From the NCBI GenBank assembly GCA_000994815.1, contig LCJU01000005.1, positions 1 through 32,496 on the forward strand: DNA of 32,496 nucleotides, given 5' to 3'. The stretch is from a candidate division WWE3 bacterium GW2011_GWC2_44_9 (lineage in GTDB: Bacteria; Patescibacteriota; WWE3; UBA101185; UBA10185). The notes beneath the pieces are model-generated. The model was not told the DNA's origin. It saw nothing but the letters and a program-made list of their open reading frames with translations, and searched no databases. A program made the position numbers and the translations under genes. Numbering within the stretch: the first letter of the stretch is position 1; each line of letters starts with the position of its first letter. Below are positions 3 through 30,229 of this stretch, piece after piece.

Positions 3-563
3 GTTATTGCTACTTTCTATGGAGATAGCGACGACTACCTTAAACTTTACCGCCTAGACGATAGTACTTTGCGACTAGCCGGAAGTTTTGCCGGAACTTC
101 CGTAAATGCTGATTATGCTTCGCCTACGCTTAACGCCGGAACCATTTACACTTTTGAAATAGCCTATACAAACGGAGGAAATCTGATATTACGGGTTGAT
201 GGAACCCAGCAAGCCAGCGCTTCGGGTGTGGTTTCTTTTAGTACAACCCCAACTACAGCCTACTTTGGCTCGGACAATTCCGGAGCAAACCAATACGATG
301 CCACATATGCCGCGGCGGATTCGCCGGTTACAGTTTCCGCGCTTTCTGCCAGCGAAAAAATATATGGCGGGGGCTATAAAACAACAACCACGGCTCTTTC
401 TAATGCAGGATTGTATCAGGATATATCTACAACAGGCGGAGCGGACTATGTAGTACGAGCGGTTGCCCACAGCGACGGGGTTTGCTCACCAAGAGCAATT
501 TTGTACGACCAAACAGGCGGAGCAGAAATTGGTCATTTGGATGGCACAACCGCCTCCACCTGA
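3..563 (+). CDS. N-terminal-side fragment of giant surface protein (LamG/concanavalin A-like domain), truncated at window edge and ending at an in-frame TGA
   Basis: Frame is open from base 3 (VIATFYGDSDDYLKLYRLDDSTLRLAGS...). It resembles the second LamG-like module at about 1200-1660 (FDIYG..NYIRAYW..., ILSVDG, TTLYMGS). Stop TGA at 561-563; same frame as the ORF 597-4754. Confidence 0.8.
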   Translation, partial: VIATFYGDSDDYLKLYRLDDSTLRLAGSFAGTSVNADYASPTLNAGTIYTFEIAYTNGGNLILRVDGTQQASASGVVSFSTTPTTAYFGSDNSGANQYDATYAAADSPVTVSALSASEKIYGGGYKTTTTALSNAGLYQDISTTGGADYVVRAVAHSDGVCSPRAILYDQTGGAEIGHLDGTTAST

Positions 564-4755: not shown

Positions 4756-5508
4756 ATGCATGTATTAAAAAGAATCATCCTATACAAGCACGCTTTTTTT
4801 AACTTCCTTTTGGTATTAGGCACTTACTTTTTCACCAGTTCCAAATATACGGCCTCGCTTGCACTTATTGTTTTTATCGCCGGGGTGTTCTTTTTTATCG
4901 GTTTTGTTGCTTTTAAGCGCAAACCCGCCGGCGAAAGCGTAAAAGATTTTTATAAACTCGTTTATCTGGTGGAGTTTTTACTTTTAACCTTGGTGGGAAC
5001 CACCGGCTGGTTCTACAGTCCTTTCTTTTTCCTTTTGTATTTTGCCGCGTTTGGTATTTCGTTTTTGGTGGCCAAATCCTCCGGTGCCGCGTTTTTGGCA
5101 TGTTTGCTCTTGATCTTTGTCCAAAATATAGGGGATGTTGACTTTGTACTAGATCTAATTACAGCTCTTTCTCTGGCCTTATCGATTCCAGCGTCTTACT
5201 ACTTTGCCAAATACTTTATGCACCTTAGGGAATCCGAAAAGAAAATACTTATTCTGGAAAAGGAAAAACAAGGCTACAGAAACGTGGTGGAGCAAGTTTT
5301 GGCTAATAAAGTTAACGACTTTGCTGTTGGCCTCAAACAGCCGGTAAATGACGTAAAACAAATGGCCAGCAGAATATTGGACGGTAAAGCCGACAAACTG
5401 GAAGTTGAATACCTAAAAAGAATTGTTGCTTCAAGCGAGGAGGCGCTGCAAATGATTAAGGGTTTTGAGCAGGAAACAACAGGCAAAAAGCTGTTGAGCT
5501 CAATTTAA
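4756..5508 (+). CDS. Polytopic membrane protein with C-terminal coiled coil resembling a degenerate histidine-kinase dimerisation helix
   Basis: Several hydrophobic segments, then ILEKEKQGYRNVVEQVLANKVNDFAVGLKQPVNDVKQMASRIL. Starts 1 nt after the previous stop. No HATPase domain. Confidence 0.7.
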   Translation: MHVLKRIILYKHAFFNFLLVLGTYFFTSSKYTASLALIVFIAGVFFFIGFVAFKRKPAGESVKDFYKLVYLVEFLLLTLVGTTGWFYSPFFFLLYFAAFGISFLVAKSSGAAFLACLLLIFVQNIGDVDFVLDLITALSLALSIPASYYFAKYFMHLRESEKKILILEKEKQGYRNVVEQVLANKVNDFAVGLKQPVNDVKQMASRILDGKADKLEVEYLKRIVASSEEALQMIKGFEQETTGKKLLSSI

Positions 5509-5950: not shown

Positions 5951-7009
5951 ATGCGTAAATCCAGGGCCGTTTTGGGCAGTATTATTGTAACTGCGCTACT
6001 TTTAACGGTGGGCAATCTGGTTTATCCCTCTGCCACAAGGATACTCCTTAATATTCTGTGGTTCATATCGTTAAGCGTAGCCTTTATGTTCCTGGCCATG
6101 GGTATAATGGCCATTTTTGGTATGAAAAAAGAGGTAGGCCGGTTGCTGGAAATACTAATGGAGGGTTCCTTTTCTGTACTAGACGTTATTGACTTTATTA
6201 AGCAAACCATTAGGCTATTTGTTGAAAAAATCAAGGAAATACTGTTAAGCGTCGCTCCGATGTTTTCCTACATCATAGCCATTGCTATGTACCTTGGCGC
6301 TTTGTACCTGTATAAAATGGTTGGCAGAACCTACGACGTTACCATCCTTACTGTTGTAGTAACTGTTACCGGTATCTCCCTTTTAAGTCTACTTAACCTA
6401 CCGGGCAGGGGAGACCTAACCAAAACGGGCTGGAAGTATGACTTTGCCAAGAAAATCAATAGAAGTTTTGTGGACTCGTTTGAAGTGGTGCTTTTTGTGT
6501 TCTTTTTAACTATGGACTCCACACACCTTTTTTACGTTCCGGCCGATCTGAATATTCCTTTGCATGCCAATTTCTTTGGTTATGATCTAATGCTTAGGGG
6601 CTTTAACCTTAACGACGGTAGGATTACACTAATAGTGGTTGCTATATCTATAGTTGTAGAGGTTATCAGAAACGTCCTAAAAATTGTCTATTCCGCTCGC
6701 AATTATTACTCCGCTTTGCTTGAAACGGAACCGGAAAACAACACAACGGAACATCAACGATTCCAAAATATCAAAAAAGCAACCAGAAAGGCTTTTGCCG
6801 AATCCCGTGACGACTTGATCCGCTTTATTGCCTTTACCACCATCCTGCTTTTTGTGTTTATCATTTTCCCAAGGTTAAAACTGCTTTCAATGATGACCGC
6901 CAACATTACCTTGCTTATGTTCGACTTAACCTTTACCGCCAGACTCTTGACCCACAAACAGGGAACAGATTTAATTTCTCGCCTGCTCGATAAGCTCCTC
7001 AAGCTTTAA
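5951..7009 (+). CDS. Polytopic membrane protein of unknown function
   Basis: 352-aa ORF with many hydrophobic helices; plausible promoter immediately upstream; no recognised family. Confidence 0.7.
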   Translation: MRKSRAVLGSIIVTALLLTVGNLVYPSATRILLNILWFISLSVAFMFLAMGIMAIFGMKKEVGRLLEILMEGSFSVLDVIDFIKQTIRLFVEKIKEILLSVAPMFSYIIAIAMYLGALYLYKMVGRTYDVTILTVVVTVTGISLLSLLNLPGRGDLTKTGWKYDFAKKINRSFVDSFEVVLFVFFLTMDSTHLFYVPADLNIPLHANFFGYDLMLRGFNLNDGRITLIVVAISIVVEVIRNVLKIVYSARNYYSALLETEPENNTTEHQRFQNIKKATRKAFAESRDDLIRFIAFTTILLFVFIIFPRLKLLSMMTANITLLMFDLTFTARLLTHKQGTDLISRLLDKLLKL

Positions 7010-10718: not shown

Positions 10719-11717
10719 ATGCAGTTAGATGATTTGCGAGCACAGTTTTTAGTCGACATTGAAATCACAAACAAGTCAGGCGAGTATGACGCGCTCTACC
10801 TAAAATACCTTTCCAAGACACACGGCTTGATTACTGAACATATCAAAGCACTGCCAAGACTTAAGCCGGAGGAAAAAAAAGCTCAGGGGCCAAAGCTTAA
10901 TGAACTAAAAAAGTTCATCGAGACAGCAATACTCAAGGCCAGACTGGCACACACAAAGGCGCAAATAGAGGATACCGGTATTGACCTTACGGCGCTGCGC
11001 CAAGCAGAAAACGTAGGCTATCTGCATCCCACAACACAAGTTATCAGAGAAATGAACGCCTTCTTTAGGTATTACGGTTTTTCGGTAGGGGAGGGACCGG
11101 AGATTGAAACCGCGGATTTCAACTTTAGAAAACTCAATTTGCCTGAAGGTCACCCGGCAACAGACTTGCAGGACACACTTTTTATCCGGGAACCGGACAT
11201 TTTGCTGCGTACTCACACATCATCAGTAGAGGCGCGACTGCTTTCCAGTCTGAAGCCGCCGATACGAATTGTAGTGCCAGGCAAATGCTACAGAAACGAA
11301 ACAGCCAACCCCTCTAATTCACCATTTTTACATCAGTATCAAGGCTTTGTGGTAGACAGGGGCGTTACCCTGCAAAATCTTAAATGGGTGTTTGATAGAT
11401 TTTTGCGCTATTTATACGCTGACGACACCATTGAAATTAGGTTTCGGTACAAGTATTACCCCGAAGTGTCACCCGGCATGGGTGTGGATATCAAATGCCG
11501 ATTTTGTGGCGGTAAGGGATGCGCCGTGTGCAAGCAAAGGGGCTGGCTGGAAGTGCTTGGTTCCGGCATGATTCACTACAATACGTTAAAAATGTGCGGC
11601 ATAAATCCGGATGATTATACTGGCTTTGCTTTTGGAATGGGTCTAGATAGACTGGTGATGGCAAAATTTGGCATTCCAGACATTAGAAGGCTTTATGGAG
11701 GGCTAACGTATATATGA
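10719..11717 (+). CDS. pheS: Phenylalanyl-tRNA synthetase alpha subunit
   Basis: GPEIETADFNFRKLNLPEGHPATDLQDTLFI...LLRTHTSSVEARLL...GFAFGMGLDRLVMAKFGIPDIR. ATG 10719 preferred over the track start at 10698. Confidence 0.95.
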   Translation: MQLDDLRAQFLVDIEITNKSGEYDALYLKYLSKTHGLITEHIKALPRLKPEEKKAQGPKLNELKKFIETAILKARLAHTKAQIEDTGIDLTALRQAENVGYLHPTTQVIREMNAFFRYYGFSVGEGPEIETADFNFRKLNLPEGHPATDLQDTLFIREPDILLRTHTSSVEARLLSSLKPPIRIVVPGKCYRNETANPSNSPFLHQYQGFVVDRGVTLQNLKWVFDRFLRYLYADDTIEIRFRYKYYPEVSPGMGVDIKCRFCGGKGCAVCKQRGWLEVLGSGMIHYNTLKMCGINPDDYTGFAFGMGLDRLVMAKFGIPDIRRLYGGLTYI

Positions 11718-13615
11718 AAATACCGCTAGAGTGGCTTAAAGATTACGTCGCCATTAAGAAAAGTCCAAAAGAAATAGGAACTGCGTTTACAGCTTTTGGG
11801 CTTATGGTTGATAAGCCATTTGACGGTAAAACTTTTGACCTCGAGCACCGCTTTGACCGCTCTGACTGGTTGTCGATTCTAGGCTGCGCAAGGGATTTGG
11901 CCGCGTACGAAAGACTTGAATTAAAATTACCAAAAATCTATACCGCCAAAGGCAAGGCGCCTACAGATGAATACAAAGTCGCAATAAAAGTGGAGTGTCC
12001 AGAAATTATCAGGCGGTTTAACACCAGGGTGTTTAGAAATGTTAAAGTTGGCAAGTCTCCTGAATGGCTAAAAACTAGACTTGAAGACTACGGCATTCCG
12101 TCGATTAACAACATTGTAGATATCACTAACTACGTAATGGTTGAACTCGGCCAACCGATGCACGCCCAAGATACCGATAAATTCAGAAAGATGGAAATTT
12201 GTATTCGTAGAGCTGGAGATGAGGAAAAGATTGTTACATTTTTAGGTGATGAGGTTAAACTGTACCCAGAGGCATTTGTGCTTGCACAAGATGGAGTAAC
12301 AACAGTTCTTGGGGGTATTGTAGGCGGTAGAGAAACCGGTGTGGATGAACAAACCAAAAATATAGTGTTGGACGCAGGCAACTACGATCAGGTGGTGATC
12401 AGGAAGGTTTCGCGCAAATTGAAAATCCTAAATGAGTCATCGCTTAGATACGACAAGTATCTGCATCCCGATCTAACCGAATACGCTATCCAACGGGCTG
12501 CTTATTTAATTTTGGAACTGGCCGGCGGAGACTATTACGAAAATGAGGATTGGTATCCAATACCGCAAAAGCTTACTAGTATAAGGCTTTCCACATCGCG
12601 TATTAAGGATTTGGGTGGGTTGGAGCTGGCCGAAAATGAAGTACTGGACATATTGGAACGACTTGGCTACAGGCTGGTGTCAAATGTCAATAAAGTGCTA
12701 ACTCTTGAAGTACCTTACTTTAGAACAGATGTGGAAGTTGCCGATGACATCGTATCGGACATCTTGCGCATCCATGGCTATGCAAAAATCCCAATAACCC
12801 AACTACTCGGAGCACCGCCAAAGGAAGAAACCCCGGCTATTTATACTTTTGAGGACAAGCTTAGGGACATTTTGGTAAAACTAAGAGGCCACGAGCACAT
12901 CACCGATCCGCTAGTTTCTTCTACCGAGAGTCCCGAGGGAGGTCAAATTATCTTAGAAAATTCGCTAAATAGCGAGAAAAATGCCCTTAGAACCTCCATT
13001 GCCCAAGGACTGGAACACGTGGCGAGTAATTACTATAAAAATCAGATGAACTCCGGTGTACTTTTTGAAATCGGACTTGTATATCATAAAGAATCAGAAG
13101 GCGGCGACTATGAATCCTACAAAGAAACCCGATGTTTAGAGTGCCTCACCTTTGACAAGGCTAAAACGCCAAAGAACTTAGGTGTGATAACCTCAACCCT
13201 TTTTTCAGGACTCCTTAAAGAGCTGGGCCTAACTAAGCCAGCTTTTAAAAACGCCAACGAGGTTTACGTTGAAAACACGCTTATTGCAACGCTTAGGTAC
13301 AACGGTTTTACAGGTTTTACTGCAAATTTGCTGCAAGTAACTGGAGGCAAAAGAGATGCTAGGGTACTTTTTGACCTACAAAGCGGCATTTCTCTGGATA
13401 CATCCCTCACTGTAAGTCAAACCGAAATGGCTGGCGCGATATGCTCGGAGATTGCTGCTTCAAGCGATAAGATTAGTGAAAGTTTTGTGGTTGAAGAATA
13501 CACGGGGGAGAAGGTGGAGAAAGGTAAAAGAACGATTCTTATTAGGACCTATTTTACTAAAGGTGTGACGCAGAAAGAGGCAACCAAAATCCTAAATAAA
13601 TGGGGACGGTCCTGA
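11714..13615 (+). CDS. pheT: Phenylalanyl-tRNA synthetase beta subunit (short form)
   Basis: Follows pheS with ATGA overlap; B3/B4 and B5 type sequences (NIVDITNYVMVELGQPMHAQD..., DVEVADDIVSDILRIHGYAKIP). No obvious EMAPII-type tRNA-binding insertion. Confidence 0.9.
   Translation: MKIPLEWLKDYVAIKKSPKEIGTAFTAFGLMVDKPFDGKTFDLEHRFDRSDWLSILGCARDLAAYERLELKLPKIYTAKGKAPTDEYKVAIKVECPEIIRRFNTRVFRNVKVGKSPEWLKTRLEDYGIPSINNIVDITNYVMVELGQPMHAQDTDKFRKMEICIRRAGDEEKIVTFLGDEVKLYPEAFVLAQDGVTTVLGGIVGGRETGVDEQTKNIVLDAGNYDQVVIRKVSRKLKILNESSLRYDKYLHPDLTEYAIQRAAYLILELAGGDYYENEDWYPIPQKLTSIRLSTSRIKDLGGLELAENEVLDILERLGYRLVSNVNKVLTLEVPYFRTDVEVADDIVSDILRIHGYAKIPITQLLGAPPKEETPAIYTFEDKLRDILVKLRGHEHITDPLVSSTESPEGGQIILENSLNSEKNALRTSIAQGLEHVASNYYKNQMNSGVLFEIGLVYHKESEGGDYESYKETRCLECLTFDKAKTPKNLGVITSTLFSGLLKELGLTKPAFKNANEVYVENTLIATLRYNGFTGFTANLLQVTGGKRDARVLFDLQSGISLDTSLTVSQTEMAGAICSEIAASSDKISESFVVEEYTGEKVEKGKRTILIRTYFTKGVTQKEATKILNKWGRS
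13603..13615 (+). repeat. Left inverted repeat/REP-like end GGGACGGTCCTGA
   Basis: Contains the internal dyad GGAC-G-GTCC; followed by the hairpin AGATG-TTGT-CATCT. Confidence 0.85.
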
Positions 13616-13624
13616 AAGATGTTG

Positions 13625-14266
13625 TCATCTCAACCCTAACATACACAACCTCCTGTTGATGTTAGCGACGAACTGTCTAGAGCCCATGTAGTTATTGCAG
13701 ATAACCTCCTTGAATGGATCATCAGGCGTTCTAATTCCGCTGACGACAAATCTATTATATTCCGCAGGAGAAGTGAAATACCCAGCAATGCTTTGTAAAT
13801 CAATGAGTCCATCACCCAACGACCGATCGATATAACACTTAAACGAACTCCATTTATAGTCATCAGGAAAGGAAACTATACCAGCGCTAACAGGGTTTAG
13901 GTGAATATATCTGCTCAACCTCAATAAATAACTGTCTTTGTCAACAAATATACTCTGATACCTATTTCTAAATATGGGGCCGTTGATACTGTACTTTGCG
14001 TTGTAATAGCCAGCGTAATAAGTGTTAAGTCTGTGCATAATTTTCGACAACTTGCATCCATCACCTGTTTCTAAACACAGATGGACATGGGTGCTCATTA
14101 AACAATAACATAAGACTTTAAAATCGCTTTCCTGCTTAACGCGCTGCAGTCTCGCTAAATAAATTCTGAAGTCCGAATTATCTCTAAACAGGTCAACTAA
14201 ACTCACTGATCTACTAATAATGTGGTAACAAGTATGCGGAATATCCACCCTCGGCATTCTAGGCAT
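13625..14266 (-). CDS. REP-associated tyrosine transposase (Y1_Tnp, RAYT family)
   Basis: MPRMPRVDIPHTCYHIISRSV...CYCLMSTHVHLCLE (HUH) ...INGPIFRNRYQSIFVDKDSYLLRLSRYIHLNPVSAGIV...YKWSSFKCY. Confidence 0.93.
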   Translation of the reverse strand: MPRMPRVDIPHTCYHIISRSVSLVDLFRDNSDFRIYLARLQRVKQESDFKVLCYCLMSTHVHLCLETGDGCKLSKIMHRLNTYYAGYYNAKYSINGPIFRNRYQSIFVDKDSYLLRLSRYIHLNPVSAGIVSFPDDYKWSSFKCYIDRSLGDGLIDLQSIAGYFTSPAEYNRFVVSGIRTPDDPFKEVICNNYMGSRQFVANINRRLCMLGLR

Positions 14267-14362
14267 TACATAATATCTATTAGCATAACTAACATGAATA
14301 AGTCAATGGGACTTGATGCAAAAAGTTAGTTGTATGACTTAAAGCCGGCATAGAGACACGTC

Positions 14363-14375
14363 TCAGGACCGTCCC
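14363..14375 (-). repeat. Right inverted repeat/REP-like end (GGGACGGTCCTGA on minus strand)
   Basis: Exact reverse complement of 13603-13615; adjacent to the hairpin GAGAC-AC-GTCTC. Confidence 0.85.
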
Positions 14376-17071
14376 TCTACTCTACGGCCGTTTTTATCTT
14401 TGGCCTTTACCTTAAACTCCTTTTCGCCTGCATCCTCCGGGCTAAAAACAAAATTGTAACCGTACGGGAAAGATTTATCTGTTGTTACTCGCTTATCACC
14501 TAAATAAATTTCCACTTGCTCAATATCGTCTTCAGACCAAGCATCCACTTTAAGTCTAAATTCCAAGGGAACCTTTTGCCCATCATCAAAGCCCACAATA
14601 TCCGTCCAAATCTTGCCGCCGCTAACGTTACCCTCGCTATCAAACGCCAATTTTGACGTGCCGGAAGGCGGAAAATAGGTATCGTCTCCGCCATACTTTT
14701 CGGACACCCACTTGTCTACTTCATCCTGCCACTCTGGCAGCTCTGCCTGTATCTTGATGTAGTTTTTCTCTTTAGTTTTGTCAGCACTCTTGCAGGCTTC
14801 ATTGGCAATCTTACCATCTACCTTACACACTTCCAGCTTTTGATACCAGTCGGAAACAGCAGTTGGTTCGGTACCGTTAACAAACCACTCCACCCGCTTG
14901 TCGTAATCGCGGTAGGGGAGCATACCTGTGAGTTTGTCCACCTCCAGCTTTTTTACGCCGTCGGGTGCGTCAAACTTTTCCACGGGTCTTTTGGCATCCT
15001 TGGCATAGTAATCCTTAATATACTGGGTCATAAACCTGTTCCATATGGGCGTGGCGCCGGTGATACCGGAAGCCAAAATAGGGTTCATCTTATCGTTATT
15101 GTTATTACCAACCCACACGGCCGAAACCACAAACGGGGTAAAACCAATAGCGTAGTTATCTCTTTTGTCGTCAGTAGTACCGGTTTTTGCCGCCACTTCA
15201 TGGCCGGGAATATGCAGGAGACTGTTAAAGCCAAAGGCTTCACTTCTGGCCCCATCGTCGGATAAGATATCGGAAATTAAAAAGGCTACTTGTTGACTTA
15301 GCGCCCGCGTGCCGCCCGAATCGCTCCACTTGTACATGGTAGAACCTTTAGCATCTTTGACTTCAAGTAATGCTTCCGGCTCGCGATATATACCGTTGGC
15401 CGCAAAAACACTGAAAGCTCCGGCCATCTCCAGCAGCTTGGTTTCGCCGCCGCCTAAAGTTAAAGCTAAGCCGTAACCTTCCGGCCGGTCAAACGTGCTG
15501 ATACCCATTTTCTTGGCTTGGTCAATCATAGTGCCGATACCAGCCATTTTTAGAGCTTTAACCGCCGGAATATTTAGTGAATTACCAAGCGATTTACGTA
15601 GCGACATCACGCCACTGAACCCGCCGCTGTAGTTTTCTGGTTTATACACTTTTTGGCCCGCCATATTCTCAAAAGTTGTTGGTACGTCCAAAAACGGAAA
15701 GGCCGAGATGTAGCCGCGGGAAAGTAGAGCAGCGTACGTTATAGGCTTAATGGTAGAACCGGGCTGCCTTTCTGCCAAAGTAACGTTTAAGTTAGGATCA
15801 AACACACATGAGCCCGGCCCGGTGGCGCCGGAAACACAGCCTTCAGGCTCCGGTTCGGCAAAATAGTCCTTAGAGCCAACCATCGCCAATATTTGCCCAG
15901 TCTTTGGATCCAGCACCACCATAGCACCGTTTCCAACAGCCAAACCTTGTTTGGCTGCCTTTGCCACCTCTTCTCCAACCATATTTTCCGCCAGCTGTTG
16001 AGTGGCCAAATCCAAAGTGGTGGTTACAACTAAACCGCCGCCCTCAACAAAGTCCTCACCGTACTTCTCCGCCAAAAGCTCCTTAACATAAAAAACAAAA
16101 TGCGGCGCTAGAAACGAGACGTTGGCGCGTTCAAACTTAAGCTCTGCTTTTTTTGCAGCCTCGTAGTCCTCGTCCGACAAGTAATGCCGCTTGCCATCCT
16201 GCTCGAACCAGCCGCGAACGTTCATTAAGTACAATACATAATCTTTTCTTTCTAAGCCCTTAGCCGGATCCGAGCTATAGTACGAATATACCGACGGGCT
16301 TTGCGGCAATCCAGCCAAATAGGCGGACTCGGCAATAGTTAAGTCCTTGGGGTCCTTATTAAAATAGGCTTTTGCCGCTGTTAACACACCATAGTTCTGG
16401 CCGCCATACGGCGTTTCGTTTAAGTACATTTGGGCGATTTCGTCTTTGGTATACTTGCTTTCAAGCTGAAGCGCCAGCACAAACTCTTTAAGCTTACGGG
16501 TTACGGTTCGTTCTTGGCTAAGCAACGTATTTTTGATCACTTGTTGGGTTAAGGTGGATCCGCCCTGCAAATCGCCGCCAAAAAAGGTATTTTTCATCGC
16601 TCGGAGCATACCCCTTAACGAAAATCCGCTGTGCATGTAAAAATCGGAGTCTTCTGTAGCTAGGGTTGCGTGGACTAAATAGGGAGAAATAGTTTTAATC
16701 TCCACTAACTCACGATTTTTTTCGCCAAAGACCTCGTAAATAGATTGGCCGTTTCGATCCAAAATTTTAGTCGACAATTCCTCACTGCGATTAAGCAATT
16801 TATCCGGTGACGGCAACTGATATGAATACACCGCGAAAACCACCATGGAAAGTACAAAAAAACCCACAATACAGGCCAATAAAGCCGACGCCAAATATGT
16901 TAAAACTACCAACTTCCTACTGGCGTATTTCTTTTTGGAGATATTCACCACCCGAGCATACTCAACACGCGGAGTTCTCGCTAGGACGCCGTTTGCCAAG
17001 GGCAGATTAGTAGCTACGGACTTTGCTGACATCGCAAGTCGTCTGCGCAGTCGTTTTAAGCTATAAGCCAT
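14363..17071 (-). CDS. Class A penicillin-binding protein (GT51 transglycosylase/transpeptidase)
   Basis: ATEDSDFYMHSGFSLRGMLRAMKNTFFGGDLQGGSTLTQQVIKN; RQPGSTIKPITYAALL; AAKTGTTDDKRDNYAIGFTP. Confidence 0.95.
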   Translation of the reverse strand: MAYSLKRLRRRLAMSAKSVATNLPLANGVLARTPRVEYARVVNISKKKYASRKLVVLTYLASALLACIVGFFVLSMVVFAVYSYQLPSPDKLLNRSEELSTKILDRNGQSIYEVFGEKNRELVEIKTISPYLVHATLATEDSDFYMHSGFSLRGMLRAMKNTFFGGDLQGGSTLTQQVIKNTLLSQERTVTRKLKEFVLALQLESKYTKDEIAQMYLNETPYGGQNYGVLTAAKAYFNKDPKDLTIAESAYLAGLPQSPSVYSYYSSDPAKGLERKDYVLYLMNVRGWFEQDGKRHYLSDEDYEAAKKAELKFERANVSFLAPHFVFYVKELLAEKYGEDFVEGGGLVVTTTLDLATQQLAENMVGEEVAKAAKQGLAVGNGAMVVLDPKTGQILAMVGSKDYFAEPEPEGCVSGATGPGSCVFDPNLNVTLAERQPGSTIKPITYAALLSRGYISAFPFLDVPTTFENMAGQKVYKPENYSGGFSGVMSLRKSLGNSLNIPAVKALKMAGIGTMIDQAKKMGISTFDRPEGYGLALTLGGGETKLLEMAGAFSVFAANGIYREPEALLEVKDAKGSTMYKWSDSGGTRALSQQVAFLISDILSDDGARSEAFGFNSLLHIPGHEVAAKTGTTDDKRDNYAIGFTPFVVSAVWVGNNNNDKMNPILASGITGATPIWNRFMTQYIKDYYAKDAKRPVEKFDAPDGVKKLEVDKLTGMLPYRDYDKRVEWFVNGTEPTAVSDWYQKLEVCKVDGKIANEACKSADKTKEKNYIKIQAELPEWQDEVDKWVSEKYGGDDTYFPPSGTSKLAFDSEGNVSGGKIWTDIVGFDDGQKVPLEFRLKVDAWSEDDIEQVEIYLGDKRVTTDKSFPYGYNFVFSPEDAGEKEFKVKAKDKNGRRVEGRS

Positions 17072-24213: not shown

Positions 24214-24867
24214 ATGCATAACTACTACGTTGTTACTTTATTTCCTGAACTGATTGAGCCATACCTGGCACATCTTCCGTTTAAGCGCGCCCTGGAAAAA
24301 AACTTAATCCAAGTGCGGCTTGTTAACTTGCGCGACTTTGCCATAGACAAACGGGGTACAGTAGACTCGCCGCCCTACGGAAGCGGACCCGGCATGATTC
24401 TTAGACCCGAGCCGTTATATAACGCCGTACAAAGTGTTGCTAAAGGATTAACAAACAACCCACGGATTATTTTTTTGACGCCGAGAGGCAAAACGTTTAA
24501 TCAGCAAATCGCCCAAGAAATTGCCAAAGCGGAAAACATGATATTGATATGCGGCAGATACGAGGGTTTTGACCAACGGGTGGTAGAAGAACTACAGGCT
24601 GAAGAACTATCCATAGGCAAGTATGTGTTATCAGGCGGCGAAGCCGCCGCAACAGTAGTACTGGAATGCTCCATTCGGCTTATACCGGGCGCCATTGACA
24701 ACGCTAAAGCCCTAGTAAACGAGTCTTTCAACACGGCCAACGTAGAGCATCCACAATATGCCCGACCGCAAACTTGGCGGGGTCGTAGCGTGCCAAAAAT
24801 TTTAACCGAGGGTCACCACAAAAAAATTGCGAGCTGGAAGTTGTCGGCTAAAGCTTGGGTAGAGTAG
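24214..24867 (+). CDS. trmD: tRNA (guanine37-N1)-methyltransferase TrmD
   Basis: VDSPPYGSGPGMILRPEPLYNAV...LTPRGKTFNQ...ICGRYEGFDQRVVEEL...LSIGKYVLSGGEAAA. Confidence 0.96.
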   Translation: MHNYYVVTLFPELIEPYLAHLPFKRALEKNLIQVRLVNLRDFAIDKRGTVDSPPYGSGPGMILRPEPLYNAVQSVAKGLTNNPRIIFLTPRGKTFNQQIAQEIAKAENMILICGRYEGFDQRVVEELQAEELSIGKYVLSGGEAAATVVLECSIRLIPGAIDNAKALVNESFNTANVEHPQYARPQTWRGRSVPKILTEGHHKKIASWKLSAKAWVE

Positions 24868-25630
24868 CGTCAATGGCTTGGGCGTAGTTAGTAAACTCGT
24901 CAAGCCTGCCCATAAAGTCACGGTATTTAGTGTCTTTCAAATCAATAGACGCAGAGGTCTGGGTATAAACTGAAAAACCCGGATTTAAGTAAGGCGAGGC
25001 CATAAGCAGGGAGGTTTCATAAGAAGTGTCATTAAAACTTGAGGCAATTTTTCCGACTTTAAAAAGTCTAATGGAGTTCTCGGAAACCTGCAAGAAGTCC
25101 ACAAGTTTTTGCAGATCTGCAGTTTCGATCTTAACGTCAACATCTTCTTCCCGATACAAGGCGGGGTCGGGGGCAGGGGAAATCGGTTGACCCTCTGTAG
25201 ATGCTTCTGCCACAGGTACGGCAGGCAGATCTTCTGCTTTATTCGTATAGGAAAGTGAGTTAAAGATTACCTTGGCATCGGTGCTCATACGCCGCACCTG
25301 CTCGGAGAGTTCAGGAACTTTATCGCGCTCCTCCAAAGCCCAAGATAGTTTGGTCAAGTCCTCCGTTACCAAGCCTCTGTTAGTCTCCAAGTCCTCCAGC
25401 TGGGCAACTTTTGCCTGAAGTGAGGCCGCTTCCACAGTCTTACTTTCCAGCTGACCGGCTAAGTCCGGCAGGGACTTATACACAGGTGTAATCACAAAAA
25501 CCGCTAAACCAACAATGATGATCAAAAACAACAGAGGAATAGCAAAATTAATAATGAAATCTCTAAAGCCTGCGGCTACCTGTCTAGCTCGTTCTTCGGA
25601 TTTTACGTTGAGGTTTTCAATTACAATCAT
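24848..25630 (-). CDS. pilO: PilO-like type IV pilus inner-membrane component
   Basis: One N-terminal TM helix, coiled coil, then VDVKIETADLQKLVDFLQVSENSIRLFKVGKI; third in a PilM-N-O order. Confidence 0.7.
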   Translation of the reverse strand: MIVIENLNVKSEERARQVAAGFRDFIINFAIPLLFLIIIVGLAVFVITPVYKSLPDLAGQLESKTVEAASLQAKVAQLEDLETNRGLVTEDLTKLSWALEERDKVPELSEQVRRMSTDAKVIFNSLSYTNKAEDLPAVPVAEASTEGQPISPAPDPALYREEDVDVKIETADLQKLVDFLQVSENSIRLFKVGKIASSFNDTSYETSLLMASPYLNPGFSVYTQTSASIDLKDTKYRDFMGRLDEFTNYAQAIDATLPKL

Positions 25631-26238
25631 TTTAGAAACGCTCCTTCGTTAATCTTAAAACTAATGGCATATTCAACGGACCCCGCTTTGCGTGTTTGGG
25701 CTTTTCGATCGTCTACGGACAGAGTCTCAAGCCGTACGTCGGTAAACGCGTTCTTGCCTGTTAGCTCAACTGCCGGGTCACTAGCCGCATTGCCGGAGCG
25801 GGAAAGTTCCGTGATAAATGCGGCAACTTGCGATGGATTAGTGGAAAATCCACTAACGTTTGCCTTTTTACCGCCCGATTCAAACGCAATATCATCCACG
25901 GTAACTTCACTAGGCACCCTGGCAATAAGTTCCTTAACAACACTGGAATAGGCTACCCGTGTTTCCATATACCTTTGTAAAAGAAAATACTTGCCCGCCA
26001 ATTTCTTTGAAACTTCCTCAACATCGCTTAACTCGGCTCTTCTACTCTCCAAGGCCAAAACCCTCTGGTCAACAGCAAAAATTTGCGCCTTATAGCTTAG
26101 GGACCTATAAACTACATACCCAGCGGCAAGCAGACACATAACTAATAGAACCGCGCTAATTTTTGTGGAGGTACCAACAAAGTACTGGGTTTTTTGTCTT
26201 TTGATCTCCTGTGGGGGAGTAAGATCAACTTGAAGCAT
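25627..26238 (-). CDS. pilN: PilN-like type IV pilus component
   Basis: MLQVDLTPPQEIK... single TM helix ...VKELIARVPSEVTVDDIAFESGGKKANVSGFS; downstream of pilM. Confidence 0.8.
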   Translation of the reverse strand: MLQVDLTPPQEIKRQKTQYFVGTSTKISAVLLVMCLLAAGYVVYRSLSYKAQIFAVDQRVLALESRRAELSDVEEVSKKLAGKYFLLQRYMETRVAYSSVVKELIARVPSEVTVDDIAFESGGKKANVSGFSTNPSQVAAFITELSRSGNAASDPAVELTGKNAFTDVRLETLSVDDRKAQTRKAGSVEYAISFKINEGAFLK

Positions 26239-26250
26239 ACATCTATAGTA

Positions 26251-27279
26251 TTAAATAAAGTCCCTTAGTGCAAGTCCTATTGCAACCGAAAAAAGCGGGC
26301 CGTTTGCAATCAAAAAGTCTTTTTGATTTTCTAGCTTTGGTGACAGGATTAAACCCTCAAAAGGGTTGGCCAATTCAACTTCTGTGTCCAACATTTCTGC
26401 GCTGTAAGCCAAAAGCCCGGGCATAACCGAAGAACCGCCGGTGTATACCACACGCTTGAAAACACATAGGTTGTTGCGAGTAAAGTAAAAATTCATAGTC
26501 CGCTTGATTTCATTTATTAGCGACTCCAGAACCGGCAGGATCGCTTTTCTTACCTTATCGTCTAAAACGCCGGCCTCCACCCCGTAGCTCTTTTTATATG
26601 CTTCGGCCTGTTCGTATGAAAGAGCAAGAGCAGAAGAAATCGCTTTAGTCATAGCGATGCCGCCCAAGGCCACATTTCTGGAGAAACTTACATAACCGTT
26701 TTTGATCACCATTGTATCGGTATCGTTTGCCCCGATATTAGCGATCAGGTCAACCTCATTAGCAGCTTGAGTCCGATTGCGCATCAGCGCCCGAACAACA
26801 GCATGAGACTCGGGCTCAACCGCTAGTACCCTAAGACCGGCAGATCTGGCCTTAATAAACATACTTTCCGAAAAATTCCTATCGCAAGCTACAATGCTAA
26901 TTTCGTTTTCGCTTTTATTTTGTTCGCCGGGCCCAACTATTTGAAAGCTGTAAACTATCTCGGACACCGGTTTAGGAAAGACCTTGCCGCCCTGAATATC
27001 CAAGTAATTGCGAATTTCCTTAGGGTCTCTAAACGGCAAACTAACAGAGGTGGAAAAAACTTTTGTCTCCGGCAAAGACAGAAGCACATCCCGCGTGGCA
27101 AAGCCGGAGTCCCTAATGAAGTGCTTAAAACCCTCTTCTGCCTCTTTGGTGTTTTCTTTTACACACTCCGAACATACAAAAGCTTTCTCCAATGTGAGGT
27201 TCTTGCTTTTGCTCTTGCTGAAAACTTCAACGGCTCTATACGAGGTATTACCCAAGTCTAGTCCAATAATGGAGGGCAT
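26251..27279 (-). CDS. pilM: Type IV pilus assembly ATPase-like protein PilM
   Basis: MPSIIGLDLGNTSYRAVEV...VLLSLPETKVFSTSVSLPFRDPKEIRNYLDIQGGKVFPKPVSEIVYSFQIV...YTGGSSVMPGLLAYSAEML. Confidence 0.9.
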   Translation of the reverse strand: MPSIIGLDLGNTSYRAVEVFSKSKSKNLTLEKAFVCSECVKENTKEAEEGFKHFIRDSGFATRDVLLSLPETKVFSTSVSLPFRDPKEIRNYLDIQGGKVFPKPVSEIVYSFQIVGPGEQNKSENEISIVACDRNFSESMFIKARSAGLRVLAVEPESHAVVRALMRNRTQAANEVDLIANIGANDTDTMVIKNGYVSFSRNVALGGIAMTKAISSALALSYEQAEAYKKSYGVEAGVLDDKVRKAILPVLESLINEIKRTMNFYFTRNNLCVFKRVVYTGGSSVMPGLLAYSAEMLDTEVELANPFEGLILSPKLENQKDFLIANGPLFSVAIGLALRDFI

Positions 27280-27291
27280 AGAGAAATTGTA

Positions 27292-27837
27292 CTAATAACT
27301 TCCCCGCAAAACAATACTGGTGTCCAGAGTTGCCCTAGACTCAAAGAGCTTGGTGCCGGCGGTGAGGGGTTTAAGAAAAGTTATCTTAATACTTACCGCC
27401 CGTGGAACTGCAGAAGCATCCTTAATAATGGCGAAACCAGAATTGACAAGATCGAGATCAACTGCCGAAGTAGTTGCGTTACCTGTGGCCAAATCTATCG
27501 TGTCATCGGTTAGTTTAACCTCGCCAACACCTGTATTAACTGTTAAGCAGTTTAGCGCTCCGTTACAAGTTTGTTTGAGAGTATACGTAACAACGCCGGT
27601 GTTCTGCTGGAGGGTCAAAACTCTACCCGTAGCGTCAACAGCAGCGGAGTATGACTTTTTAACGTCGTTCTCAACTTTTAGTAAAATAAAGTTTGAGGCG
27701 TGGTCTATGTCAATATTTGCCTGCAGTTTAGCTGAACTTCTAACCAGATTAACAACCATTGTTGAACTCACTACCGCTACCAAAGCCAGCAGGCCAACAG
27801 CTATTAGCACCTCAATTAAAGTAAAGCCTTTTTTCAT
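27292..27837 (-). CDS. Prepilin-type protein (minor pilin)
   Basis: MKKGFTLIEVLIAVGLLALVAVVSSTMVV: class III signal peptide. Confidence 0.85.
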   Translation of the reverse strand: MKKGFTLIEVLIAVGLLALVAVVSSTMVVNLVRSSAKLQANIDIDHASNFILLKVENDVKKSYSAAVDATGRVLTLQQNTGVVTYTLKQTCNGALNCLTVNTGVGEVKLTDDTIDLATGNATTSAVDLDLVNSGFAIIKDASAVPRAVSIKITFLKPLTAGTKLFESRATLDTSIVLRGSY

Positions 27838-28370
27838 CTGTCCCTCCAGTCCGAAAGAATAGTTTGAACAATGTAACTGCGCGGCCTGTCCCCGATTTTC
27901 CACCAGGTACGCTGGGTAATGAGCGCGGTTGTATCTGTAGCTGTTAAGTTGCCGCCAGTTAGGTTAGTGGCGCCAAATGAGTAGTTCACCTTGTAGTTAG
28001 TAAAAGTTTCCGCCTCGGCGGGACCGGTTTGAACAGCAAAAGTCCCACCGGCCAAAACCTGAATGTGGCAGCCATCCGTTTCACTGGCAGCCGAGTCCGC
28101 ACACCCGTCAACTGCCTGCACAAAAGTGGCCCACTCGGCCTGTGCGTCCCTTAACAGTTTTAGTCTTTCCAGCTCGGCTTGGGCAGTTTTGCCCGCCTCT
28201 GCATTCACTCTGGCGGCAACGCTTGATTTGAGCGAAAACAGGCCCAAAGCCACCAAGCCCACCACAAGCAGCATAGAAATACCAAGCGTGAGTAAAACCT
28301 CAACCAGCGCAAAACCCTTTGACTTGTTAATTAGAACACGGGTTGACACCAAAGCTTCCTTTCGAGACAT
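27834..28370 (-). CDS. Prepilin-like protein
   Basis: MSRKEALVSTRVLINKSKGFALVEVLLTLGISMLLVVGLVALGLFSL; 4-nt overlap with next gene. Confidence 0.8.
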   Translation of the reverse strand: MSRKEALVSTRVLINKSKGFALVEVLLTLGISMLLVVGLVALGLFSLKSSVAARVNAEAGKTAQAELERLKLLRDAQAEWATFVQAVDGCADSAASETDGCHIQVLAGGTFAVQTGPAEAETFTNYKVNYSFGATNLTGGNLTATDTTALITQRTWWKIGDRPRSYIVQTILSDWRDR

Positions 28371-28821
28371 ACGTGTTCCCGGTTGTATATTCAAAAAAGA
28401 TGCAGGTAGGTGTTTCGGTAGAGTCCATTTTGGCAACCATGGAATAGGGGAGAGCGGAAACAGAATCTTGAACAGTTTTGGCGGCGTCCAACGTGCCACA
28501 AACCGAGTCAGACAGATCGCTTGACCTAAAAGAAATATACTCGCCGGAGTCCTTAACAAACCGCACACCGGCATACTTGTATTTTTGGTCTGCTCCCACT
28601 CCCGGACTTCCCACCTCGGCTTGCGCCTTATTTTGGGCAGTCCGCAAAGAGTCTTTGGCAGCGTTGTAGGCTTCTTGCAAATTTAGCTCCTTGCTTCGGT
28701 TAGAAAAGGACGAAAGTGAGGCCGACATTACTATGCTTATAATGCTCATAGCAATTATAACTTCAAGTAGAGTGAAGCCTTTGTTAAAGGTAAAGCCTTT
28801 GGTAGACATTTTAGTCATCAT
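28327..28821 (-). CDS. Prepilin (GspH/FimT-like)
   Basis: MMTKMSTKGFTFNKGFTLLEVIIAMSIISIVMSASLSSF. Confidence 0.85.
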   Translation of the reverse strand: MMTKMSTKGFTFNKGFTLLEVIIAMSIISIVMSASLSSFSNRSKELNLQEAYNAAKDSLRTAQNKAQAEVGSPGVGADQKYKYAGVRFVKDSGEYISFRSSDLSDSVCGTLDAAKTVQDSVSALPYSMVAKMDSTETPTCIFFEYTTGNTYVSKGSFGVNPCSN

Positions 28822-28822
28822 A

Positions 28823-29320
28823 TCATTCGGCAGACACAAAATATTTTATACCACTAGCGGGAAAGCCGCAGTCGCACCAACCGGCGATTGGACACAAAAC
28901 GCTAGCGGACGACGCAAGCTCCATGTTAGTAGCAAGAACGTATGCGGCGCCATTTGATCTGTAGCCATAGCCGCGCCACTCATTACTGCTGCAAACCGCT
29001 CCCGTAGCTTTAGGATCCGTTGGCAGTGCATTTATGTAGTCAGGCGAAAGCCCGGTTAAACTGGCAATGGCTACCCAGTTAGACGTTGTAGGATAGCTAC
29101 GATGGTCGGAAAAGTACAACTCAAGAGCGGTTCGCATCTTTGCTATGTCGGCAATTCTCTGGGAATCCCTGGTTTTTTGCTGGATGCCGCGGGCATTTAT
29201 AACGGCAAGCAGCACTCCGGTCATAATGCCCATTAACGAGATAGCAATAAGCAACTCAAGCAAAGTGAAGCCTTTATTAAAAGCAAAGCCTTTCTTGGCT
29301 AGGCAAGTTTTAGCAGCCAT
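28823..29320 (-). CDS. Prepilin
   Basis: MAAKTCLAKKGFAFNKGFTLLELLIAISLMGIMTGVLLAVINARGIQQKTRDSQRIADI. Confidence 0.88.
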   Translation of the reverse strand: MAAKTCLAKKGFAFNKGFTLLELLIAISLMGIMTGVLLAVINARGIQQKTRDSQRIADIAKMRTALELYFSDHRSYPTTSNWVAIASLTGLSPDYINALPTDPKATGAVCSSNEWRGYGYRSNGAAYVLATNMELASSASVLCPIAGWCDCGFPASGIKYFVSAE

Positions 29321-29810
29321 CGGTACCTCCCGTGCAATTTGCCCCCGAGCACTCTCTTATTTTGCCCCAAGTTGACCGATATTTAAAACACTGGCTTGAG
29401 CTGGACGCTTTTGGCACATACGTGCCAAAAGCTGATTGGTCGGAGCTTACCGCATAGTAGTAGAAAACCCCGGCTTTAGGCTCGTTGTTGGGGTGTTTGG
29501 CAATAAATACCTGAACGTCAGCGCTATCCGGCTTGCCGTCGTTATTAAGGTCACCCATTTCGGCCGCAAGCGGGTACTTACCGTAAACGCTTGCATAGGA
29601 TTCAACACCCGTAGCCAGCTTTTCCAAATTTGACTGCCGAATGGTATCTTCCGCCTTGTCCCGCTGAACCTTTGGATTTATTATGGCAATCAATACACCT
29701 GATAAAATAAGTACCACGCTTATTACCACAAGCAGCTCAACCAATGTAAAGCCCGCTGGGCTTTCAACCAATGTAAAACCGTTTGGGTTATTAGCTCTCA
29801 ATCTATGCAT
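29310..29810 (-). CDS. Prepilin with duplicated cleavage motif and EF-hand-like loop
   Basis: NPNGFTLVESPAGFTLVELLVVISVVLILSGVLIAIINPKVQRDKAED...GDLNNDGKPDSADVQVF; SD AAGGAGG upstream. Confidence 0.88.
   Translation of the reverse strand: MHRLRANNPNGFTLVESPAGFTLVELLVVISVVLILSGVLIAIINPKVQRDKAEDTIRQSNLEKLATGVESYASVYGKYPLAAEMGDLNNDGKPDSADVQVFIAKHPNNEPKAGVFYYYAVSSDQSAFGTYVPKASSSSQCFKYRSTWGKIRECSGANCTGGTDGC
29737..29790. repeat. 27-bp imperfect tandem repeat encoding (N/A)GFTLVE in a prepilin leader
   Basis: TCAACCAATGTAAAGCCCGCTGGGCTT / TCAACCAATGTAAAACCGTTTGGGTTA; first 14 nt identical. Confidence 0.9.
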
Positions 29811-30229
29811 GACGAAGCTCCTCCTTCTACCATATTAGCAGACTGACCGGTATCAAAGTTAAAACTGCAATTATAGTAGCATGTACCGCCACCAAATGAA
29901 TCCGGCAGTGATGCACCAAGCTGGATAGTATTTACAGATCTGGAAATGGAATACAATGCACCATCGGGTGTTGAAAGTGAGTTGAGACCAAGATCAGCAA
30001 AAGAATCACAGCTGGGATAGGTGGGGTATGAGGCCCCACAGGCATTTAGTGCCAAGCACATTTTGGAAAAGTTTGCCCGCAGAACCGCTTCGGAAGCTTT
30101 ACGCCTCTGTTGAACGGGGTTAATAAGCACAAAAAGTGCTCCAGCTAAAATAGTAACTATAGAAATAACCACAAGCAGCTCAACAAGCGAGAATCCTCTA
30201 GTTAAAGGTTTGGCAGTATACATAATCAT
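29798..30229 (-). CDS. Prepilin, cysteine-rich
   Basis: MIMYTAKPLTRGFSLVELLVVISIVTILAGALFVLINPVQQRRKASEAVLRAN. Confidence 0.88.
   Translation of the reverse strand: MIMYTAKPLTRGFSLVELLVVISIVTILAGALFVLINPVQQRRKASEAVLRANFSKMCLALNACGASYPTYPSCDSFADLGLNSLSTPDGALYSISRSVNTIQLGASLPDSFGGGTCYYNCSFNFDTGQSANMVEGGASSCID

Follow-up and report, generated by a model that had tools for sequence, protein, structure and literature searches.

The terminal inverted repeats of a Y1/HUH transposon encode the last codons and stops of pheT and a convergent PBP gene in a WWE3 bacterium

Here, we present an analysis of a 32,496-nucleotide stretch of DNA (the window) from the candidate division WWE3 bacterium GW2011_GWC2_44_9. 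Between the convergent genes for PheT and a PBP1A-type PBP lies a 773-bp element (13603-14375), which holds one Y1/HUH transposase gene inside an exact 13-nt inverted repeat, GGGACGGTCCTGA. The features of the locus are as follows.

11714..13615, plus strand: pheT, 633 aa (PF03483, PF03484, PF17759, TIGR00472); the repeat provides its three final codons and its stop.
13603..14375, no strand assigned: whole TIR-bounded element, recognized by the exact 13-nt inverted repeat at both ends and the same architecture around related transposases elsewhere.
13603..13615, plus strand: terminal inverted repeat on the 3' side of the transposase gene; gives the third base of the Trp codon and GRS-stop to pheT.
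13617..13630, plus strand: possible hairpin AGATG-TTGT-CATCT (DNA fold z -0.44), absent in L020 and L006.
13625..14266, minus strand: Y1/HUH transposase, 213 aa (Pfam PF01797, NF047646), with HVH motif (60-62) and Tyr120.
14363..14375, minus strand: terminal inverted repeat on the 5' side of the transposase gene; gives the third base of the Glu codon and GRS-stop to the PBP gene.
14363..17071, minus strand: PBP1A-type PBP with a C-terminal Ig-like domain (PF00912, PF00905, Big_7); the repeat provides its three final codons and its stop, and the final beta-strand is shortened.

Elsewhere in the window (24848-30229, minus strand), genes resemble a type IV pilus assembly cluster, with PilM/N/O-like genes and prepilin-like N-termini, as judged by eye.

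The sequence at 14363-14375 is the exact reverse complement of GGGACGGTCCTGA at 13603-13615 on the plus strand, and both copies lie within the flanking reading frames. PheT, which is encoded by a single-copy gene in the host genome, ends in ...NKWGRS-stop and the convergent PBP in ...RRVEGRS-stop; GGACGGTCCTGA writes both tails, while the first G of the repeat doubles as the third base of the preceding codon (Trp in pheT and Glu in the PBP gene). Beyond the 13 nt, the inverted match continues imperfectly (20 nt at 85%), and there is no third copy of GGGACGGTCCTGA in the window at up to two mismatches (0.32 expected). The first-pass annotation had described a Y1 RAYT-related transposase bracketed by an exact inverted repeat, GRS-stop tails of both pheT and the PBP encoded by the element ends, and 9 nt separating the stops of pheT and the transposase gene; we confirm all three. 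No target-site duplication is visible at the element borders. The pheT-PBP neighbourhood is conserved in relatives, which speaks against misassembly at this junction of the window.

The transposase matches Y1_Tnp (PF01797; E 7e-11 against Pfam) and, with 67.9 bits, the model for REP-associated tyrosine transposases (NF047646), for which the cut-off is 80 bits; it does not match the IS200 model NF033573. Its HVH motif lies at residues 60-62 and its catalytic-type Tyr is Tyr120 in YIHLNP; the two His and the Tyr are invariant across an alignment of related transposases (A2). The last 32 residues gave no Pfam match at E up to 1, a search that a short, divergent HTH could escape. In the host genome (712,044 bases on 53 contigs), this is the single Y1_Tnp match. 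A PHROGs search found nothing, and a scan of viral contigs found no relative of the element. A scan of genome contigs found only two relatives, namely a WWE3 element and one distant relative. The closest relative found, on contig MEVN01000005.1 of WWE3 RIFCSPLOWO2_12_FULL_36_10 from the same family (G012), has a transposase that is 53% identical to that in the window, and a phylum-wide search added further transposase relatives at ~30% identity.

The element in G012 is a 763-bp unit with GGGACGGTTCTTGG at both borders. It lies at a locus other than the pheT-PBP junction, flanked by two genes whose N-termini, on visual inspection, look like those of a prepilin and a prepilin peptidase. Matching (G)GGGAC-type repeats occur at both ends of 11 other CPR elements, mostly as GGGGACGGTTCTC and, at L116 and L121, as GGGGACGCT, while a twelfth (L154) has the GGGAC core at a single end. 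Where measured, the related units span 724-765 bp. Among these loci, L150 and L153 come from two genomes of the same genus and are too closely related to be independent, L124 and L127 lie near contig ends, and L155 was left out of the element count. The recurrence of the boundary core around the 53%-identical and the ~30%-identical transposases in other genomes is observed directly; judged from these sequences, the repeat exceeds chance. At two loci, L034 (G009) and L039 (G049), palindromes that are perfect or nearly so, for example GGGGACGGTCCTCCCAATTGGGAGGACCGTCCCC, lie near Y1 transposases, with a similar GGGGAC core inside a self-complementary repeat.

Ends without a transposase also occur. 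The host genome contains a solitary end of the type found on the 3' side of the transposase gene (G000:C35:5013-5050; 38 nt, 87%, E 3e-6) and a 15-nt solitary match to the repeat on its 5' side (G000:C9:4669-4683). Two of the six exact matches in the genome, on C12 and C15, were rejected as solitary ends; they are Gly-Asp-Gly-Pro codons for GDGP[DE] peptides inside genes. In another genome (G218), a 139-bp unit without a transposase (L157, 1501-1639) has GGGACGGTTCTC inverted repeats and lies 28 nt past a gene, which suggests that the repeats suffice to define a unit. More copies of the GGGACGGTTCTC-type repeat are present on other contigs of G218, and this genome may hold a family of miniature elements.

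RAYT relatives that are bounded by terminal inverted repeats have been described as TIRYTs or TIRtrons, and some of their TIRs have the consensus GGGGWSAS in common (Di Nocera et al. 2013, PMC3733652); they mostly comprise Y1 transposase subclass 2.1 (PMC6006769). The element in the window combines a RAYT-like Y1 transposase that has the HUH motif and the catalytic Tyr with terminal inverted repeats other than REPs (13 nt exact and 20 nt at 85%), an architecture kept in its relatives. Its pheT-side core, GGGGACGG, fits GGGGWSAS at 7/8 positions, and the PBP side reads AGGGACGG. By its transposase and TIR-bounded architecture, we classify it as a TIRYT-type element, i.e., a TIR-bounded RAYT relative, rather than a REP-bounded RAYT.

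We compared the junction among 27 genomes of the family, including that of the window, with a pheT match in 26 and a PBP match in 26. The PBP gene is convergent on pheT in 14 other genomes and the element is present in none of these junctions. In 12 of the 14, the stop-to-stop gap is -27 to +65 nt and without a transposase; G012, the host of the closest relative of the element, has an empty junction with 1 nt between the stops. The other two junctions contain unrelated small genes and have gaps of about 470 and 544 nt. These small ORFs, at L052 (G017) and L057 (G014), have about 130-140 codons, and we conclude that the pheT-PBP junction tolerates insertions.

The first-pass annotation had proposed comparing the C-termini of PheT and PBP with those of relatives, and this comparison turned up no element-free relative sharing GRS-stop. 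Among the PBP relatives, none has a C-terminal GRS or terminates at the same position. On a PBP C-terminal profile of 203 positions, the window protein reaches position 188, while 23 relatives reach 197-203. Thus, the window PBP is an outlier; in the alignment it is 5-12 residues short, and the missing residues fall in a final beta-strand that is present in all relatives. On a PheT C-terminal profile of 245 positions, the window protein reaches 230 and 14 relatives reach 229-245; its stop lies within the natural variation, like those of G010, G013, G014, and G017. In models of the Ig domain, the final strand has 10 residues in G012 (84-93 of 95; mean pLDDT 94) and five in the window (85-89 of 90; mean pLDDT 89), the latter including the repeat-encoded Gly and Arg. 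The alignment of relatives was fed into the model, and the modelled strand thus shows compatibility rather than function. Altogether, the compared sequences indicate that the GRS-stop tails are not ancestral.

We put at roughly 0.7 the probability that a TIRYT-group insertion at the convergent pheT-PBP junction, with loss of the native last codons of both genes during or after it, explains the double tail. According to this model, a TIRYT-group transposon with a Y1/HUH transposase and TIR borders would have landed at the junction, presumably moved by its transposase acting on the borders, and in or after the insertion pheT and the PBP gene would have lost their native last codons. Each reading frame would then continue into the element such that GGGACGGTCCTGA is read as (x)-Gly-Arg-Ser-stop, and identical ends would cap both proteins. 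The stop would be a by-product of the landing site and of an end sequence private to this element rather than an evolved cassette, and the altered ends would be tolerated because both C-termini can be changed at that point; the altered PheT and PBP proteins probably still work. When the flanks were joined in silico, no native-looking tail was recovered for either gene, with scores in the shuffled range in all frames. We therefore infer, rather than see, a deletion, in which several tens of bp of native tail DNA would have been removed rather than displaced.

It is also conceivable, but unlikely, that pheT and the PBP gene overlapped ancestrally and one insertion into this overlap cut both without any deletion, in which case the native tails would lie beyond the far sides of the element. 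This scenario would account for both truncations at once, and pheT and the PBP gene overlap by 14 and 27 nt in two relatives. Elsewhere in the window, three more convergent pairs have overlaps of 9 nt (5500-5508), 39 nt (6971-7009), and 20 nt (24848-24867), and long convergent overlaps seem to be common in the host genome. However, no frame across the joined flanks resembles the tails of the relatives beyond the shuffled range, and the overlap required is longer than any found in the relatives.

The first-pass annotation had interpreted the ends as REP pairs with hairpins. In its full form, this interpretation holds that the element is a true RAYT with its flanking REPs arranged as a REPIN-like pair and the hairpins as recognition sites. 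The match to NF047646 at 67.9 bits, the existence of a solitary end, and the inversion of the two ends relative to each other all fit this idea; nevertheless, we consider it quite improbable. The NF047646 score lies below the cut-off of that model, the ends do not have a GTAG tag beside a conserved palindrome, and in place of a REP population the host genome has one strong and one 15-nt solitary match. The described hairpins can be drawn; however, they are no better than those in shuffled sequences (z -0.4 and -0.8), and neither the ends of the G012 element nor the solitary copy contain them. We rejected REP-type hairpins as part of the element on these grounds, and read the ends as terminal inverted repeats of the TIRYT type.

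The same annotation had gone further in proposing that the ends act as a portable in-frame GRS-stop cassette and that the element is selected for low-cost insertion, i.e., to land at gene ends and restore in-frame termination. Both ends do terminate a gene in the window, and ORFs beside GTAG REPs often take a TAG stop from the repeat (PMC3733652); our literature searches returned nothing relevant on repeats that provide stops in the form seen here or on transposases of Katanobacteria. Related elements often lie just past genes: the distance from the upstream stop to the repeat is 0 nt at L123, where the TAG stop of a Peptidase_M50 gene abuts GGGGACGG exactly, 7 nt at L154, 9 nt at L150, and 10 nt at L121, followed by 38 nt at L117, 98 nt at L153, and 116 nt at L020. 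For these distances, ORFs were called mechanically and only the M50 gene was checked against families. Other related elements lie near gene starts. The solitary end on C35 lies between two ORFs of the same direction, 13 nt past one stop, and the match on C9 is close to the start sites of a divergent ORF pair. The several related elements that follow a stop at 0-10 nt favour a softer version of the proposal. However, none of the 11 two-ended GGGAC elements, L154, or the solitary copies gives in-frame codons and a stop to a gene; the annotation had named the absence of further copies with this gene-end bias as a refutation, and this largely applies.

The stop itself is private to the window element. 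The TGA arises because the repeat reads GGTCCTGA where other elements read GGTTCT... or GCT..., and a TGA at this position is absent from every other element read; some have a TGA further in and in a different frame. At each end of the window element, GRS-stop is read in only one of three frames, the others reaching a stop at 47-86 nt. If frames are random, the chance that both genes meet the TGA frame is 1/9 and, with one case, selection therefore cannot be shown. Accordingly, we find the cassette and its selective advantage very improbable. We attach as little weight to the related idea that the lineage evolved the in-frame stop in the repeat (GGTTCT to GGTCCTGA), which would then cap genes, with gene-end insertions being favoured in streamlined CPR genomes. 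The least credible proposal is that GRS-stop is ancestral to both genes and the inverted repeat a coincidence or a result of conversion between gene ends; RS does end some PheT relatives (L055, with ...EVRS, L064, and L075), such that the tail could look partly native, but GRS or a stop at that point occurs in no PBP relative, the same core borders related transposases elsewhere, and the repeat is found outside both genes, both solitary and bound to a transposase.

What is unusual here is the landing site; the kind of element is already known. At this locus, a single transposon provides the final codons and stop signals for two single-copy housekeeping genes together, a clear-cut example of the way in which mobile DNA can alter protein termini where genomes are highly compact. 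Moreover, our analysis records TIRYT-type elements in CPR bacteria, in a WWE3-like family and in other CPR classes.

In comparison with known systems, the window element is most naturally placed beside the TIRYTs, with which it shares a RAYT-like Y1 transposase between terminal inverted repeats rather than REPs, as well as the occurrence of solitary repeats. It differs from them in its host, which has a CPR (WWE3-like) genome, in one end that deviates at the first G (AGGGAC), and in the position of both ends inside the reading frames of the flanking genes; in addition, Pfam detects no C-terminal HTH domain of the subclass 2.1 kind in its transposase. IS200/IS605 single-strand transposons have subterminal hairpins and no inverted terminal repeats. 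The window element shares with them the Y1_Tnp domain with HUH and a single Tyr; in contrast, it has inverted repeats, its hairpins are not conserved, and its transposase is not matched by NF033573. GTAG REPs and their RAYTs resemble it in having a related transposase, in lying near gene ends and between convergent genes, and in repeat ends that may provide a stop (TAG in GTAG REPs, PMC3733652); however, the window element is without the GTAG tag, the conserved palindrome, and the abundant repeat population. Finally, the rickettsial palindromic elements (cited in PMC3733652) are likewise repeat DNA turned into coding sequence, but they sit within ORFs and keep the frame, whereas the repeat in the window ends the ORF.
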